A DNA stretch of 64,000 nucleotides from Thalassobacillus devorans. GTDB taxonomy: Bacteria; Bacillota; Bacilli; Bacillales; Halobacillaceae. Where the stretch lies: assembly GCF_900176565.1 (NCBI RefSeq), contig NZ_FXEH01000006.1:868001-932000 (forward strand). Reading direction: 5' to 3'. The position numbers were made by a program, and so were the translations under genes. Under the pieces are notes generated by a model. That model did not search any database. It saw nothing but the letters and a program-made list of their open reading frames with translations, and had not been told where the DNA came from. Positions 585-58,827 of this stretch are shown here, piece after piece (position 1 is the stretch's first letter; every line of letters starts with the position of its first letter).

Positions 585-617
585 AAGCCCGGACATTTTA
601 TAATGTCCGGGCTTAAT
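585..617 (+). terminator. Intrinsic terminator of the pyruvate oxidase gene
   Basis: A perfect 13 bp GC-rich stem (585-597 with 602-614) with a four-base loop stands 62 bp after the stop codon. The downstream side is only moderately T-rich. Confidence 0.8.
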
Positions 618-628
618 TATTATCTAGG

Positions 629-790
629 AAATTATAAAATTTCCTTTTTTGGATAACTTTACGTGGTTGGTTCTATCCAGCTCCAGCGCCTACCCCCTCG
701 AGGTCTTAAGACAAACCTCTCTGTGACAAAAAACGTCACGACGAGGCTTGTCTTAAGCTTGTCGGGGGTGAGCAAGGCGCTTGCGCTTTT
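629..790. repeat. Family A repeat, copy 1 (empty-site copy)
   Basis: This non-coding repeat starts with an AT-rich lead-in, then CTCCAGCGCCTACCCCCTCG, and ends AGGCGCTTGCGCTTTT. Its two halves fold into one long interrupted hairpin: AGCGCCTACCCCC pairs with GGGGGTGAGCAAGGCGCT, CTTAAG arms pair, and GTGAC/GTCAC closes the tip around a run of six A. It ends 4 bp before the stop codon of rnjA on the minus strand, so it may form the 3' end of that transcript. A second copy is at 24818 and a diverged relative at 56269. Confidence 0.8.
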
Positions 791-794
791 GTTC

Positions 795-2462
795 TTATAC
801 CTCCATGATGATCGGAAGGATCATCGGACGGCGTTTTGTTTTATCAAATAAGAATGGTGCAATGGTATCCGTAATTTCATTCTTGATTTCCGACCACTGG
901 GTCGTACGGCGTTCCATCACTTTTTCAACATGCTGGGAAACTAGCTTTTGCGCTTCTTTGATGAGATCTTCAGATTCACGCATATAGACAAAACCGCGCG
1001 ATATAATATCTGGACCGGATGCGATCTTGAATTCCTTCATGTTGATACTTACAACTACAATCACAAGCCCTTCTTCAGAAAGGATGCGACGGTCGCGTAA
1101 CACGATGTTCCCGATATCACCAATACCGCTTCCATCTACATATACAGAACCGGATGGGATTTTACCTGCAATCATTGCATTATCTTTTCCGAGGGCCAAA
1201 ACGTCCCCGTTATCCATAACGAAGCAGTCGCTCGGATCGATGTTTGTCTGTTGTGCCAGTTTCGTATGCTCTTTTAACATACGGTATTCACCATGAATCG
1301 GCATGAAATACTTAGGCTGCATCAAACGAAGCATCAATTTCATTTCCTCCTGGCTTCCATGACCAGAAGTATGGATGTCATTTAGTGGTCCGTGAATAAC
1401 ATCCGCACCGTTACGGTAAAGCATGTTGATTGTCTTAGATACACTCAACGTGTTCCCTGGGATTGGGGAAGAGGAGAACACGACAGTATCTCCTGGCATG
1501 ATCTGAATCTGACGATGTGTACCATTGGCGATACGGGATAGAGCTGCCATTGGTTCACCTTGGGAGCCGGTACACAGGATCATGACCTCATGTGCTGGAA
1601 GACGGTTGATCTGATGGGCATCGATAAAAGTATCCTTCGGCGCCTGAATATAGCCGAGTTCCTGGCCGATTCGAATGGACGATTCCATGCTGCGTCCAAA
1701 TACGGCGACTTTACGGTTATGTTTCACCGCTGCTTCTACCGCCTGCTGTAAACGATAGATATTGGATGCAAAAGTGGCGAAAATAACTCGTCCATTGACG
1801 CGGCTGAAAATATCCTGGATGCTTTGTCCGACAACACTTTCAGACTTTGTAAAACCTGGGACTTCACTGTTCGTACTATCCGATAATAGAGCTAAGACGC
1901 CTTCTTTTCCGATTTCAGCCATTTTTGCTAGGTTTGCTGGCTCTCCAACCGGGGTGAAATCAAATTTGAAATCACCAGTATGCACAATATTCCCTGGTGG
2001 TGTTTTGACAACGACACCGAATGAATCCGGAATACTGTGTGTTGTTTTGAAGAATGTCACCGATGTTTTACGGAATTTGATGACATCATCTTCCTGAATT
2101 ACGTTCAATTTAGCATTACGTAATAAACCGTGTTCGTCTAATTTGTTTTTAAGTAGTCCGATCGCTAACTTTCCTGCATAGATAGGCACATTGATTTCAC
2201 GTAGAAGATAAGGAATGCCGCCTATGTGGTCTTCGTGTCCGTGGGTGATGAAAAGACCTTTGATTTTGTCCTGGTTTTGCACGAGATAGGTGTAATCCGG
2301 AATGACATAATCAATTCCAAGTAATTCATCTTCCGGGAATTTGATACCCGCATCAATCAAGATGATTTCGTCCTGGAACTGGACGCCATACGTATTTTTA
2401 CCGATTTCACCTAAGCCGCCTAGTGCGAAAACAGCGGTTTGATCATTTTTTACGAATTTCAT
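795..2462 (-). CDS. rnjA: Ribonuclease J1
   Basis: The 555-residue protein is a metallo-beta-lactamase/beta-CASP ribonuclease. The zinc motif HGHEDHIGG is near residue 75, followed by the beta-CASP domain ([14 protein letters not shown] region) and a C-terminal domain ending in PIIMEV. RNase J1 combines 5'-3' exonuclease and endonuclease activity in mRNA turnover and rRNA maturation. The length equals that of B. subtilis RNase J1. The ATG lies 2 bp after the rpoY stop, so the two are translationally close and share a transcript. An RNase J2 would be encoded elsewhere. Confidence 0.97.
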
Positions 2463-3930: not shown

Positions 3931-4099
3931 GGTCCGTTATCATGTAAGAGAAGGATGGGCAGGGAAACGACTTGCTTTCCTGCGGGGGACCTGGCAAGCT
4001 TCCTCGGGCAAAAGCCCTGCGGGATCTCGCCTAGCCCCTTCTCCCGCGGGAGTCTCGCCGTTTCCCTGCCCATCCAGCCAGCTTTGTAATAAACGGACC
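3931..4099. repeat. Family B core repeat with its own GGTCCGTT ends
   Basis: The 169 bp block has terminal inverted repeats (GGTCCGTT, then GGATGGGCAGGG on both sides). It contains the GC-rich family B core: TCCTGCGGGGGACC on one arm and CCCGCGGGAGTCTCGCCG on the other. It lies just behind the ykrA stop codon and has no coding capacity with a ribosome binding site. Confidence 0.7.
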
Positions 4100-4143
4100 C
4101 TTCAAAAACAGATGGTAAAGAACGAAAAGGGGATCATCTCTTA

Positions 4144-4390
4144 ATTCAATGATCATAAATGGCATCATTGGGTGATAGCATCAAGTGTGATTTCGAGAAT
4201 TTTCTATGGCAAGGTCCGGTGGGGAACGGCGAGACTCCTGCGGGATGAGCATGACAGGTGAGACCCCGCAGAGCGTAAGCTCGAGGAGGCTCAGCGCATG
4301 TCCGCGGAAAGGGAGTCGTTCCCCACCGGGCCGTCATGCAAGCAATCATCTCGAAATCAAGTCTTCGACTTTTCGGCATTTTAATTGAAT
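4144..4390. repeat. Family B repeat, copy 2
   Basis: The arms GTGGGGAACG / CGTTCCCCAC and GCGAGACTCCTGCGGGA bracket a GC-rich centre. The outer ends read ATTCAAT...GATTTCGAGA on the left and TCTCGAAATCAAGTCTTCG...ATTGAAT on the right, i.e. imperfect inverted ends of the kind seen at 12017 and 58268. It fills the convergent gap between ykrA and def together with the block at 3931. Confidence 0.75.
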
Positions 4391-12016: not shown

Positions 12017-12160
12017 TCAATTAAAAGACCAAAAAGTCGAAAACTTGATTTCGAGATGATTGTAGAAGTAAAGGGGCGTTGGGGAAGGGTTCGCTTTCCA
12101 CCTCAATCCAATCTAAAGTCTCTAAACTGAGTCTTCAACAAAAGGGAGCTTTAATTTAAC
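12017..12160. repeat. Family B repeat, internally deleted copy
   Basis: The left end (TCAATTAAAAGACC, then GATTTCGAGATGAT) and the right end (AAACTGAGTCTTC, then GGGAGCTTTAATTTAAC) match the outer ends of the larger copy at 58264. The GC-rich core between them is almost wholly missing. Confidence 0.6.
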
Positions 12161-17154: not shown

Positions 17155-17367
17155 AAGACCATAACCTGAAAACGATTACAAATTACTTGTAAAGGAGCTG
17201 GATATTCAGATGGGTACAATTGTATGTCAAGACTGCCAGAAGATCATTGAGCATTATGAAGATGAGAAGGTTTCCACTCTTTATAGTACTTGTCCGTCTT
17301 GTCATCCGAAAAAGAAATAGTCTTCCTCACACATAAGAGAACCCCGCCGGCATCCCGGCGGGGTTTT
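17155..17367 (+). ncRNA. sr1: SR1 dual-function regulatory RNA
   Basis: A transcript of about 205 nt is inferred from the promoter at 17126-17154 to the terminator at 17340-17367. It contains the SR1P reading frame. In B. subtilis SR1 lies at this same place beside speA, base-pairs with ahrC mRNA, and is repressed by CcpN (strongly) and CcpA (weakly). A catabolite element CTGAAAACGATTACAA (17166-17181) matches the cre consensus at 15 of 16 positions, just downstream of the predicted start. Base pairing with ahrC cannot be checked here. Confidence 0.8.
17210..17320 (+). CDS. sr1P: SR1P, GapA-binding peptide
   Basis: The 36-residue peptide begins MGTIVCQDCQKIIEHYEDEK and has Cys6/Cys9 and Cys28/Cys31 pairs, like a minimal zinc ribbon. 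The N-terminal MGTIVCQDC and the EDEKV-TLY stretch are the hallmark of SR1P, which in B. subtilis binds glyceraldehyde-3-phosphate dehydrogenase GapA and promotes its interaction with RNase J1. AAAGGAG lies 12 bp before the ATG. It is notable that rnjA is also in this window. The tail (HPKKK) differs from the B. subtilis peptide. Confidence 0.88.
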   Translation: MGTIVCQDCQKIIEHYEDEKVSTLYSTCPSCHPKKK

Positions 17368-17371
17368 ATTT
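17340..17371 (+). terminator. Terminator of sr1
   Basis: A perfect 11 bp, very GC-rich stem (17340-17350 with 17355-17365) with a T-rich tail. Confidence 0.92.
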
Positions 17372-17404
17372 TTATGATGCTTAATCCGCAAATATGCATC
17401 CTGA

Positions 17405-24498: not shown

Positions 24499-24780
24499 TT
24501 GAGGAAAAGATGGATTTTTTCAACGGTAGGTGCACTAGGCGCAGGTACTTTAGCATACTTGCTGAAGGATGAAGAACGCCGGGGCCAATGGAAAGGGAAA
24601 GCGCAGTCACTTTTCACAAAGTCTAATGGCAGTGATTTACCAGTAGAAGCAGCTGGAAATCCGCAGGAAGACAATCACGAAAATACTAAGATGGTGTCCG
24701 AAGGTTCTCAATTCGGGGTCCAGTATTATAATGAACTGACCGAAAAAGAACGAGAAATACTTGAAAAAGCAAACAGCTAA
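24499..24780 (+). CDS. Small protein with N-terminal membrane anchor
   Basis: The start is the TTG at 24499 (MRKRWIFSTVGALGAG), 9 bp behind AAAGGA; the ATG at 24490 touches that site. The 93-residue product has one N-terminal hydrophobic segment (about 5-22) and an acidic hydrophilic rest ending ILEKANS. Family not recognised. The terminator stem overlaps its stop codon. Confidence 0.6.
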   Translation: MRKRWIFSTVGALGAGTLAYLLKDEERRGQWKGKAQSLFTKSNGSDLPVEAAGNPQEDNHENTKMVSEGSQFGVQYYNELTEKEREILEKANS

Positions 24781-24808
24781 ATCCTGAAAAGGATTTAGCT
24801 GTTCTTTT
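24772..24808 (+). terminator. Terminator overlapping the stop codon of the anchor-protein gene
   Basis: A perfect 14 bp stem (24772-24785 with 24790-24803) with a GAAA loop and a T5 tail. The TAA stop is inside the left arm. Confidence 0.9.
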
Positions 24809-24817
24809 TGGTTTAAT

Positions 24818-25072
24818 AAATTATAAAATTTTCTTTTTGTGTATAATTTTACGTAGTGGTTACATCCAGCTCCAGCGCCTACCCCCTCGAGGTCTTAAGT
24901 CAATCCTCTCTGTGATTAGAAAAACTTGGCTTATCGCCAATGTTTTATGGCGAAAGCTTTAGTTTTACTTATACTTTAAACCTTTATAAACTTAATTGGT
25001 CTAAAGTACAAAAAACGTCACGGCGAGGATTGCCTTAAGCTTGTCAGGGGTGAGCAAGGCGCTTGCGCTTTT
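24818..25072. repeat. Family A repeat, copy 2, split by a family C insertion
   Basis: The outer parts match copy 1 at 629-790 nearly base for base: CTCCAGCGCCTACCCCCTCG on the left, AGGCGCTTGCGCTTTT on the right. A 93 bp foreign block sits at the tip of the hairpin. As in copy 1, the element ends a few bases before the stop codon of a minus-strand gene (ylaJ). Confidence 0.85.
24916..25008 (-). mobile_element. Family C element nested in family A
   Basis: Comparison with the empty copy (GTGA then CAAAAAACGTCAC at 723-740) shows a clean 93 bp insertion with no base lost and no target duplication longer than the one ambiguous A. On the minus strand it starts TACTTTAGACC directly behind TTTTTTG. 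It has TACTTTA/TAAAGTA near the left end, and ends with the hairpin TTGGCGATAAGCCAA plus GTTTTTCTAA. It has no coding capacity. Confidence 0.8.
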
Positions 25073-25077
25073 GTAAT

Positions 25078-25686
25078 TCAATTATTTTCTTTGTTCAAAT
25101 GTTCGTTGGATTGCTCTTCTTCGATTTCATCCAGCTTCTGTTCTTCTCTTTCAGGAACAGATTCTTTATTCGGATCAGGCTCTTCCGGACGGTCGTCATC
25201 AATTGGCATTTCCGGCATGTAACGGCCGACAATGGCACTTAATTCTTCGCTAATGGCCTGAATCGGATGGCCTTCCTGCAGTTTGTTGTTCAATTGCCTG
25301 ATTCGTTCTACACCGTCTGCATCGGCAACAACAACTGCTTGTTTTCCGTATGGGTCATGTTTCAATGATTCTCCTACAGAATATTTGATCGTGCCCACCC
25401 GGGACCGATCTAATTCCTTATCAACGTCTATGCCCACCACAACATAAGGACCCAGCACAATCGCAGTAGCATCATGCACATTTGGGACTTCTGTTGCCAG
25501 TTTAGCTAGGTGTTGCGCAATCTCCTGATTGGAACGATCTTCCTTTTCTATAGGATCTGAATCTTTTACCATCAACGGTTCTGTTCCATCACGCTCTTGC
25601 TGTAATGTTTCCGGATCGTCGTTCTGACAAGCCGTCAAAGCGAATAAAGCAGTCAATATCAAGGCGTTAAGCATATGTTTTTTCAT
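25078..25686 (-). CDS. ylaJ: YlaJ/YhcN-family sporulation lipoprotein
   Basis: The 202-residue protein has a signal peptide with lipobox LTAC (Cys20). The YhcN/YlaJ domain (about 50-150) contains VPNVHDATAIVLGPYVVVGIDVD, with secretion-and-adhesion-like repeats, and the tail is very acidic. Members are forespore lipoproteins found in the spore inner membrane and affecting germination. It indicates a spore former. The gene lies divergent from ylaK. Confidence 0.9.
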   Translation of the reverse strand: MKKHMLNALILTALFALTACQNDDPETLQQERDGTEPLMVKDSDPIEKEDRSNQEIAQHLAKLATEVPNVHDATAIVLGPYVVVGIDVDKELDRSRVGTIKYSVGESLKHDPYGKQAVVVADADGVERIRQLNNKLQEGHPIQAISEELSAIVGRYMPEMPIDDDRPEEPDPNKESVPEREEQKLDEIEEEQSNEHLNKENN

Positions 25687-28716: not shown

Positions 28717-29334
28717 GCTCTGTTAAAGCTCCGTGTTGATTTCACAAAAATAGCTCCCTTTAATTGAAGACTCAGTTTCGAGATAGTTTGTTTCCGTTAC
28801 GGTAGTAACGGTGTGGAGGTCCGGGAAATTACTCGCTTTCCGTGGGCATGTGGTGAGCTTCCTCAGGCTTCGCCTTGCGGGATCTCACCGCTCATGTTCA
28901 TCCCACTGGAGTCTCGCAATTTCCCGGACCTCCTTGCGTTTATGAGAGATACGGAAGCATCGGTATATCGTTCTTCAAACCAAGAGTGAGCTATGCATGA
29001 AATATGAGCTTAAAGCCGCGTCTTTATTCAATTATCCATTAAAAGTAGAAGACATCTGCAATATAACAGGGGTTCTTTTCTCCCATCCTTCGGATGGGGT
29101 GGCAGGGAAACTGCGAGACTCCAGCGGGATAAGGGACTAGGCAAGACCCCACAGGGAGTGAAAACGACCGAGGAGGCTTGCCGGTTCCCCCGCAGGAAAG
29201 CGAGTAGTTTCCCGGACATCCCTGACGCTATTATGGTAAAGAACCCTCACTATCTTGAAACTGAGTCTTCCACAATTCGGCCCTATTGTTGAATAAGCCT
29301 ATTATGAAAATCAACAACAAAGTTTAACAGAGCC
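28716..29334. mobile_element. Composite family B element with 8 bp target duplication
   Basis: The element is flanked by ATTTTTTA on both sides (28708-28715 and 29335-29342). Its ends are inverted repeats: GGCTCTGTTAAA is identical on both, and similarity extends through GTTGATTT to about 27 bp. Inside are two palindromic cores. One is framed by a perfect 16 bp arm (28815-28830 with 28918-28933). The second (about 29065-29250) is framed by GGGAAACTGCGAGACTCC and its imperfect complement. No transposase gene is present. The TIR start and AT-rich 8 bp duplication resemble ISL3-type insertion; that attribution is inference. Confidence 0.85.
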
Positions 29335-45857: not shown

Positions 45858-46016
45858 GACTCCGTTAAATTTCTGTGTTGATATTCCATTAAAACTCCCT
45901 TTTACTGAAGACTCAGTTTCGAGACGTTAGGTAGTAATTATGGTGGCTGGGAAAACGGATCGCTTTCCGTGGGTAAAATCAATAGCAAACAGAGTTATGG
46001 TAGTAAAGAACTGTCT
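45858..46016. repeat. Family B repeat, internally deleted copy
   Basis: The left end matches the TIR type of 28716: GACTCCGTTAAA, then GTGTTGAT and GAAGACTCAGTTTCGAGA. It runs into GGCTGGGAAAACGGATCGC and stops inside the core, then resumes at TTATGGTAGTAAAGAACTG. The second core and the right TIR are missing. The rest of this 312 bp gap (46017-46127) holds only the upstream region of ylbC. Confidence 0.65.
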
Positions 46017-50084: not shown

Positions 50085-50197
50085 GTATATGCCACCTCAT
50101 TTTATGTAATGTGTCCCGCATTTACTTTAGCATGTAATACAGAAGTTGTGAACGGTTAAGTATAGCAACGACTTACCTTCGAGGAAAAACAAAAATA

Positions 50198-50229
50198 GGG
50201 CTGCCCGGTAAACGGACAGCCCGTCTTTT
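50198..50229. terminator. Orphan two-way terminator-like hairpin
   Basis: Stem GGGCTGCCCG / CGGACAGCCC with one mismatch and a GTAAA-type loop, T-rich on the right (CTTTTTGTTT) and A-rich on the left. It lies between two genes that diverge, so it ends no annotated gene. Confidence 0.6.
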
Positions 50230-50269
50230 TGTTTCTGACTTGGAGAAACAAAAAGCAAAGGGAGAGGAG

Positions 50270-50345
50270 AAACCGGAGGAAGGCTTATGGGGATGTAAGC
50301 CTTCTCCGTCTTCTAAAGCAGTAAGCCATTGCTTCCTGCTTCATT
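50270..50345 (+). ncRNA. Probable ylbH leader RNA upstream of rsmD
   Basis: Two tandem stable hairpins are visible. The first is CGGAGGAAGGCTTA paired with TAAGCCTTCTCCG (one bulge, 50274-50308). The second is AAGCAGTAAGC paired with GCTTCCTGCTT (one mismatch, 50316-50341). A conserved structured RNA named the ylbH leader is known upstream of this gene in bacilli (Rfam ylbH family). The position fits, but the match to the model is not verified. The remaining sequence to the start of rsmD (50346-50538) shows nothing clear except an AT-rich promoter-like stretch. Confidence 0.5.
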
Positions 50346-58263: not shown

Positions 58264-58827
58264 GCCTATTCAATTAAAAGGCCGAAAAGTCGAAGACTTG
58301 ATTTCGAGATATCAAGGGTTCTTTACTATAAAAGAGTCAGGGCTGGCTGGGAAACTACTCGCTTTCCTGCGGGGGACCTGGCAAGCCTCCTCAGTCGTTT
58401 CACTCCCTGCGGGGGTCTTGCCTAGCCCCTTCTCCCGCGGGAGTCTCGCAGTTTCCCATCCACCCCAGCTGAAGGATGGGGAAAAGAACCCATGTTAGAG
58501 ATAAGGCTGTCTTCGACCATCACTGGTTACGCACGTTTTTACAAGTAGCTCTCCCTTTGGCAGAAGGAATGAATATCGATGATTTCCGTTATTCCCATAA
58601 ACGTAAGGAGGGCCGGGAAATTGCGAGACTCCGATGGGAGGATAGTACATGGTGAGATCCCGCAGGGCTTTAGCCCGAGGAAGCTCACCGTACCCCCATG
58701 GAAAGCGAGTGATTTCCCGGACCTCCAAACGCTCACAACCATAACGGAAACAGTTTCTCTCGAAACTGAGTCTTCCATTAAAGGGGAGCTTTCATTTTAA
58801 AATCAACATTGAGATTTAACAGAGTCA
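58264..58827. mobile_element. Composite family B element, second large copy
   Basis: Read on the minus strand it is collinear with the element at 28716-29334. It starts GACTCTGTTAAA (58826 downward), then GAAGACTCAGTTTCGAGA, the core framed by GGTCCGGGAAAT (58600-58735), the spacer, and the second core framed by GGGAAACTGCGAGACTCC with AAAGAACCC (58316-58491). It ends ATTGAAT instead of the full right TIR. No transposase gene and no target duplication are visible. It fills the gap between the crotonase gene and gerR. Confidence 0.75.

Follow-up and report, generated by a model that had tools for sequence, protein, structure and literature searches.

How short non-coding repeats spread through bacterial genomes is still a largely open question. 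REPs, dispersed short intergenic palindromes that go with TnpA-REP/RAYT, are thought to need a Y1 enzyme in trans (excerpts of PMC8266576 and PMC6006769), and the former source, in the passages at hand, describes the enzyme as suspected and the route of spread as still to be found. For IS608 and ISDra2, of IS200/IS605, the excerpts of PMC6006769 describe subterminal hairpins, a short target of fixed sequence next to one of the ends, a single-strand route and use of the lagging-strand template; facts on IS200/IS605 are also given in part of PMC7290912, which reports that its own genome shows no preference for either strand. In Haloquadratum walsbyi, the palindromes of PATEs (palindrome-associated transposable elements) recur in IS605-type elements of that genome (PMC3119063, selected passages). 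For group IIC (bacterial C) introns the insertion point is immediately downstream of an intrinsic terminator, and a strand bias is described (excerpt of PMC8919778); PMC2267715, in the extract at hand, has a table of stem-loop families from other Bacillus.

Here we describe two families of short repeats, A and C, that meet in a window of Thalassobacillus devorans DNA (the whole stretch analysed, 64,000 nucleotides; the genome it belongs to is called the source genome below). For the C family, orthologous sites with and without the element can be compared in close relatives, the target is defined and the landing place lies behind terminators, all of which makes its mechanism testable, and the A+C composite illustrates the origin of nested palindromes and their exchange between copies. 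A literature search, as wide as its terms and library, found no paper on the A or C repeats. New here is the position of solo C copies, those outside A, directly behind intrinsic terminators, after TTTTR on the minus strand.

A clean insertion at the tip of a palindromic repeat

The locus comprises the following features, in window coordinates.

24774-24809, plus strand: intrinsic terminator (hairpin and T-tract) directly before A copy 2, identified by eye
24812-25076 (limits approximate), plus strand: A copy 2, a palindromic repeat with C at its tip, from the window sequence and A-family matches
24916-25008, minus strand: C element of 93 bp nested in A copy 2, clean against copy 1 and against the G004 orthologue without C
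25009-25015, minus strand: target of the nested C, 5'-TTTTTTG (plus strand CAAAAAA), which fits the solo target TTTTR

On the plus strand of the window the nested 93-bp block reads TTAG...AAAGTA; its active strand would be the minus strand, 5'-TTTTTTG/TACTTTAGACC...TTTTTCTAA/TCAC-3', with the junctions at the slashes. Within the window, copy 2 consists of CTCTGTGA, the 93 bp and CAAAAAACGTCAC, as against CTCTGTGACAAAAAACGTCAC in copy 1, and the junction involves one ambiguous base (A) and zero lost bases. The orthologous locus of G004, also T. devorans and the closest relative read, has a flank 97% identical and the same A insertion with an uninterrupted GTGACAAAAAACGTCAC, in which GTG is followed directly by ACAAAAAACGTCAC, no base being gained or lost relative to the source genome; this A has arm changes in common with copy 2. 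Both comparisons bear out the preliminary description, which had claimed a clean 93-bp block inside A copy 2 with at most one ambiguous base and none lost. G001, G002 and G003, like G004 of the same genus as the source genome, have the site without A, so that, taken alone, it fits gain of C in the source line as well as loss in that of G004.

The copy used for the first comparison lies near the start of the window.

585-622, plus strand: terminator hairpin before A copy 1, with a weak T-tract (window sequence)
623-794, plus strand: A copy 1, without C; the site is without A in G004 and G001 and holds A+C in G002

Copy 1 had initially been taken for the empty site of the C in copy 2, and as an orthologous empty site we rejected it. 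It is a paralogue. At its own site A is missing from G004 and G001, whereas G002 (L278) has, behind the same terminator, A+C and one more insert; a flank search gave no match in G003. As a paralogue with the empty tip usual for the A family, it is by itself compatible with gain and with loss of C. The converse possibility raised at the outset, that orthologous A copies all carry C and copy 1 is a deletion, does not hold at the copy-2 site, where the A of G004 lacks C; the copy-1 site, A+C in G002 and A-less in G004 and G001, speaks neither for nor against it.

Orthologous A sites are polymorphic for C elsewhere as well. The reverse of the copy-2 pattern occurs at L032 and L041, which are simple in the source genome and whose G004 orthologues (L117 and L064) carry C. 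At the L033 and L039 sites, a simple A in the source genome corresponds to no A in G004 and to A+C in G001, at the former site with another module (L279) and at the latter in L230. Together with copy 1 there are thus three terminators with a simple A in the source genome, A+C in G002 or G001 and nothing in G004, which indicates that clean loss or repeated landing also occurs: either the same terminators were hit repeatedly or A was lost cleanly in the G004 line. This pattern bears on the direction of change, not on the clean junctions.

The A family, with 25 matched pieces in the source genome, also lies behind terminators, one being found no more than 15 nt from the left end in 12/12 source copies tested. 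In six aligned loci the left flank of A in the source genome holds about three extra bases relative to G004 (two in L035, plus another gap at the right), and these equal the right flank in only two of the six (L031 and L036), which makes a target duplication by A no more than possible. The left arms of A, at 629-680 of the window and elsewhere, often hold a sequence near TGTGGATAA that varies between copies and that we take to resemble a DnaA box. In T. pellis (G003), shortened A copies stand in head-to-tail rows with units of about 120 bp (C2:693836-694152, C2:789752-790112 and C1:812670-813025).

C as a dispersed family with clean junctions

A search of the genome and its relatives with the 93 bp, proposed in the preliminary description, returned at least 40 matches in the source genome (40 of 78 candidates scored) and a collection of occupied and empty orthologous sites. 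C is a dispersed, non-coding family with a length of about 93-95 bp. For the junctions, the joined flanks of 23 solo C copies of the source genome were searched in G001-G004, with the element taken as TTAG...AAAGTA; 13 of the 23 loci (L003, L006, L007, L008, L009, L010, L011, L012, L013, L017, L018, L020 and L030) could be aligned on both sides of the junction with a relative that lacks C. Among the others, L005 had its left flank only, in G001, L015 was ambiguous and several were occupied in G004; the relatives' loci L128, L129, L133 and L225 were too diverged or gapped at the junction, and L224 held other sequence (an A remnant). C makes no target duplication, none being present at any of the 13 aligned loci. 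At seven of them (L003, L009, L010, L013, L017, L018 and L020) the alignment to at least one relative is free of gaps for 5 bases around the junction, and at six (L006, L007, L008, L011, L012 and L030) a single base differs, usually inside an A-run or next to one. A TA target duplication, hinted at by L003 only, is not borne out by the remaining loci.

C is mobile. The L003 site is empty in all four relatives and the L010 site in the three that were matched, and the absence of C at L003 throughout indicates that C has been gained, not only lost. Together with the 13 clean loci, this sustains the original proposal of a mobile element that inserts without target duplication. Many solo copies of the source genome are present at orthologous places in G004, which points to activity of the family over a long time. 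Such shared copies, the position of C at gene ends beside terminators, and A and C sites occupied in a more distant relative but vacant in the nearest would also suit an old regulatory or 3'-UTR element that was lost in relatives and whose mobility is only apparent. We consider this extremely unlikely in view of the empty L003 and L010 sites, of the presence of C inside another mobile repeat, and of the repeated clean loss at many places that it would require, which is less likely than insertion.

Outside Thalassobacillus, C is up to 97% identical in Salirhabdus and occurs also in Virgibacillus, there cut by the sequence end; in a survey of 41 genomes, the source genome included, nine had a match, in 5 of 22 genera. 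Plasmid records gave no match to the A+C composite, and plasmid and phage records gave only short matches to solo C, with E near 1. No Rfam family reached its gathering score over C or A in the window, where only weak sub-threshold matches were seen. Elsewhere in the window, Rfam matches correspond to a ylbH leader (50189-50311) and an SR1 sRNA (17157-17372).

Target site, terminators and strand

The usual landing place of C is the T-tract behind an intrinsic terminator. A hairpin with T-tract ends at the right junction in 49/67 solo copies (23/37 in the source genome and 26/30 in G003) and at the left junction in 0/67, the other 18 copies having no terminator by the criterion used; nested copies and L113 (score under 60) were left out of this test. 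Random positions had a terminator in 16/740 cases in the source genome and 16/600 in G003 (Fisher, 2e-24 and 5e-31). The target, on the minus strand immediately before the element, is TTTTR, as tabulated for 63 of the 67 solo copies: T stands at -5 in 59, T at -3 in 59 and A or G at -1 in 49, and the commonest forms are TTTTA (25) and TTTTG (8). The nested C obeys the same target rule, with TTTTTTG at the A tip.

By local GC skew, 35/38 solo C copies of the source genome have their active strand on the G-rich strand, that is, the lagging-strand template, the exceptions being L017, L030 and L112, the last two with a skew near zero. In G003 the count is 21/30, which is not above the gene bias (p = 0.36). 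ORFs at the C loci of the source genome are on the G-rich strand in 69/106 cases (window ORFs are on the plus strand in 37/55), and against this background the 35/38 gives p = 1e-4, and the source genome and G003 together p = 0.001. The orientation of A follows the skew in 15/17 copies; the nested L001 and L002 are not part of the strand counts, nor are the partial L053 and L054 of those for A. Because C follows terminators, its strand bias is confounded by gene direction, and we count it as support only.

Group IIC introns likewise land behind terminators with a strand bias (PMC8919778, excerpt). Reverse transcriptase genes accompany three group II introns of the source genome (L268 at C2:88974, L269 at C2:93195 and L270 at C1:153929), and a group II intron enzyme might place C behind terminators in trans, via reverse transcription, like group IIC introns. 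We hold this to be very unlikely: C matches no Rfam intron family (none in the window at gathering scores, none in 24700-25200 at E up to 10), and the 5' flanks of the three introns, examined by eye as printed, do not lie behind terminators. One of the intron proteins has what we take, by eye, to be an HNH-like tail, which counts against a group IIC-like mover. On the strength of these flanks and this tail, the group II introns were rejected as movers.

The sequence before the 5' ends of the three introns resembles, by eye, a third, longer repeat family of the window (ATCTCGAAATCAAGTCTTC), whose inverted copies lie at 3953-4388, 12017-12155, 28745-29298, 45888-45973 and 58264-58785.

Conserved hairpins

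Two hairpins were located in the nested C.

24921-24966, no strand assigned: C hairpin 1, near the TTAG end (DNA fold; over 60 solo copies its two helices persist in 89.4% and 94.8% of cells)
24972-25008, no strand assigned: C hairpin 2 (TACTTTA/TAAAGTA), at the end abutting the T-tract (DNA fold; helices kept in 89.8-96.6% of cells)

Folded as DNA, a 99-nt piece reaches z = -4.1 on the plus strand and -5.7 on the minus strand, with 0/200 shuffles as good on either strand, and the ends of C, TTAGAAAAAC and CTTAAAGTA, are not complementary; C has hairpins near both ends and no terminal inverted repeats, just as first described. The hairpins are conserved: over 60 solo copies (alignment A1, 60 of 61 references, L025 excluded) 92.0% of the pair cells are kept, as against 28-57% when the partner is slid. 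Compensatory change is not convincingly present. Double-change cells number 8 against 2.9 in shuffles (3/500 as high), five of the eight at one outer-stem pair, and structures slid by 1-3 columns give 7-12 such cells. The number of covarying pairs is ordinary (145/500 shuffles as high), and RNAalifold on the C alignment returned almost no consensus structure.

History of the nested copies

In a tree of 92 C copies, the 25 nested ones (2 from the source genome, 12 from G004, 6 from G002 and 5 from G001; best matches only) form one clade with a support of 0.987, and 0/67 solo copies, which came from the source genome and G003 and none from G001, G002 or G004, fall inside it. The single clade of the sampled nested copies suggests that C probably entered A once, and one founding insertion is the simplest reading. 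A tree of the A arms has 20 changes of C status, where shuffling gave a mean of 18.4 and a minimum of 11, and in it the orthologous pairs L001/L214 and L041/L064 (source copy first) cluster whatever their C status. The presence of C is thus independent of the A arms, which points to transfer of C from one A copy to another while the outer arms stay in place.

Where L041 and L064 differ by C inside one A, they differ by two further inserts as well. In a table of 54 pattern-recognised rows, which misses several A copies (L002, L034, L038 and L058 among them), further modules occur in 7/22 rows with C, in 1/5 unclear rows (L118) and in 0/27 rows with an empty tip; L118 is a C-bearing copy in the C tree, and L050, counted as having C, keeps only its first bases. 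These co-varying modules are best accounted for by A copies exchanging their central hairpin. Jumping of a special C lineage from tip to tip between A copies, or its precise exit, would likewise produce one clade of nested copies, a C status independent of A-arm lineage, and orthologous A copies that differ by C at the same point (source copy 2/L214 and L032/L117). We rate such tip-targeted transposition as possible, if doubtful, because the three different inserts of L041/L064 come and go together, as exchange of the central tract would have them do, because the further modules are distributed over the C-bearing, unclear and empty-tip rows as counted above, and because the solo copies in the tree, from the source genome and G003, include no member of the nested clade.

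The insert modules in A are of two kinds, 57 bp and about 66 bp long, both small hairpins with a ACAGGACGT core at fixed places of A. They were located in L064 (about 1300-1710, minus strand; G004 C1:967360 region) and in L050, L057, L065, L121, L123 and L125.

IS1397 is an IS3-family element with its own transposase. Like the nested C, it enters the tip of a palindromic repeat, and a parallel between C and IS1397, which targets REP loops in E. coli, had been drawn at the outset; C differs from it in having no transposase, and its nested copies are one clade. Tip targeting is not the general rule for C, whose solo copies lie in T-tracts behind terminators and which probably entered the A tip once.

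Search for the enzyme

The most likely mover of C is a Y1-type enzyme that would carry out single-strand transposition; none was found in the source genome, where the Y1_Tnp profile PF01797 has zero matches. The same profile matches once in each of G001-G004 and is found in 67/81 genomes surveyed, and PF07282 has no match in 4/5 genomes of the genus. Beside the Y1 loci read, a subset comprising 30 loci, nine of ten regions and three loci, there are no paired C-like ends, and weak matches at Y1 loci consist of a 35-bp C piece in L184 (E 0.003) and a 26-bp A piece in L181. The proposed search for a Y1 transposase gene with matching ends was therefore unsuccessful, and the link to IS200/IS605 is one that we infer. 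The initial assignment of C to palindrome-associated elements of the IS200/IS605 type agrees with its anatomy, clean junctions and short fixed target; what failed to appear is the matching Y1 gene.

RAYT genes were also considered as movers and rejected. The RAYT regions of G002, G003, G005, G007, G010 and G011 hold no C or A beyond chance pieces, the gene of G003 has palindromes of its own, and that of Salirhabdus (L277) is accompanied by another inverted repeat. In L277 a full C copy does lie about 0.3 kb beyond the end of the RAYT gene, behind a terminator-like hairpin.

The Salirhabdus gene stands, by eye, between inverted copies of a GTGCCTGTCACCACCCGAAATTTGTCGAA repeat (L277:775-822 and 1993-2028), and the T. 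pellis gene is flanked by palindromes of the form ACCCC..GAGAACCA (L187:1148-1203 and 1855-1973), the latter in a REPtron-like arrangement.

Since the source genome has no Y1_Tnp match yet holds a C copy absent from all four relatives, a mover other than a known Y1 transposase is conceivable. C and A would then be non-coding repeats of separate descent but the same kind, palindromes that home to terminators and that such an enzyme moves without duplicating the target, a property established for C, and C, having invaded A, would now be a passenger gained and lost at a fixed tip. We think this unlikely.

Proposed mechanism

We lean towards the reading that C is a non-autonomous IS200/IS605-like element that homes to terminators, founded the A+C composite and was then passed between A copies. 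For the chemistry, the Y1-type enzyme, the path of C from one A copy to another and the succession of events, we infer the following. C would leave and enter as single-stranded DNA, recognised via its two subterminal hairpins, and would be joined directly 3' of TTTTR on the active strand, with the consequence that nothing is duplicated or lost; a landing behind a terminator is expected to do the host no harm. Early on, before the lineages of the source species, G001, G002 and G004 split, one C would have entered the T-tract at the tip of A, which is itself mobile and likewise lies behind terminators. Multiplication of the A+C composite would have followed, and C would have reached further A copies, with recombination or gene conversion between A hairpins of almost the same sequence as the most likely route. 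The nested C of the window would be one outcome of this spread.

Comparison with known systems

With IS608 and ISDra2, C shares subterminal hairpins and a fixed short target beside one end (PMC6006769, excerpts), and insertion 3' of a fixed tetra- or pentanucleotide, which characterises IS200/IS605, is found in C as well (TTTTR, 63 solo copies). The single-strand route and the lagging-strand template belong to IS608 and ISDra2 and would extend to C by analogy; C differs from both in having no tnpA, and no autonomous relative of it was found. Compared with REPs, the C consensus is without GTAG/GTGG, and the RAYT genes of G003 and Salirhabdus are flanked by other repeats. Group IIC introns resemble C in terminator landing and, subject to the confounding by gene direction noted for C, in strand bias, but C itself is no intron.

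The PATEs of Haloquadratum, according to the passages of PMC3119063 at hand, are like C in that they lack terminal inverted repeats, have palindromes near both ends, make no target duplication, are too short for a transposase and are present in multiple copies. They differ from C in two respects: no IS605-type parent was found for C among the loci read, and C settles behind terminators, a habit of which those passages make no mention for PATEs. Given the shared anatomical features and the missing IS605-type parent, we call C PATE-like. The same source, as excerpted, describes the SMR-A elements of Haloquadratum, which are about 110 bp long, make no target duplication and insert into near-terminal palindromes of other short elements, much as C does in A. 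SMR-A elements have prominent terminal inverted repeats, whereas C has none; with this difference, SMR-A is the nearest precedent for the nesting of C.
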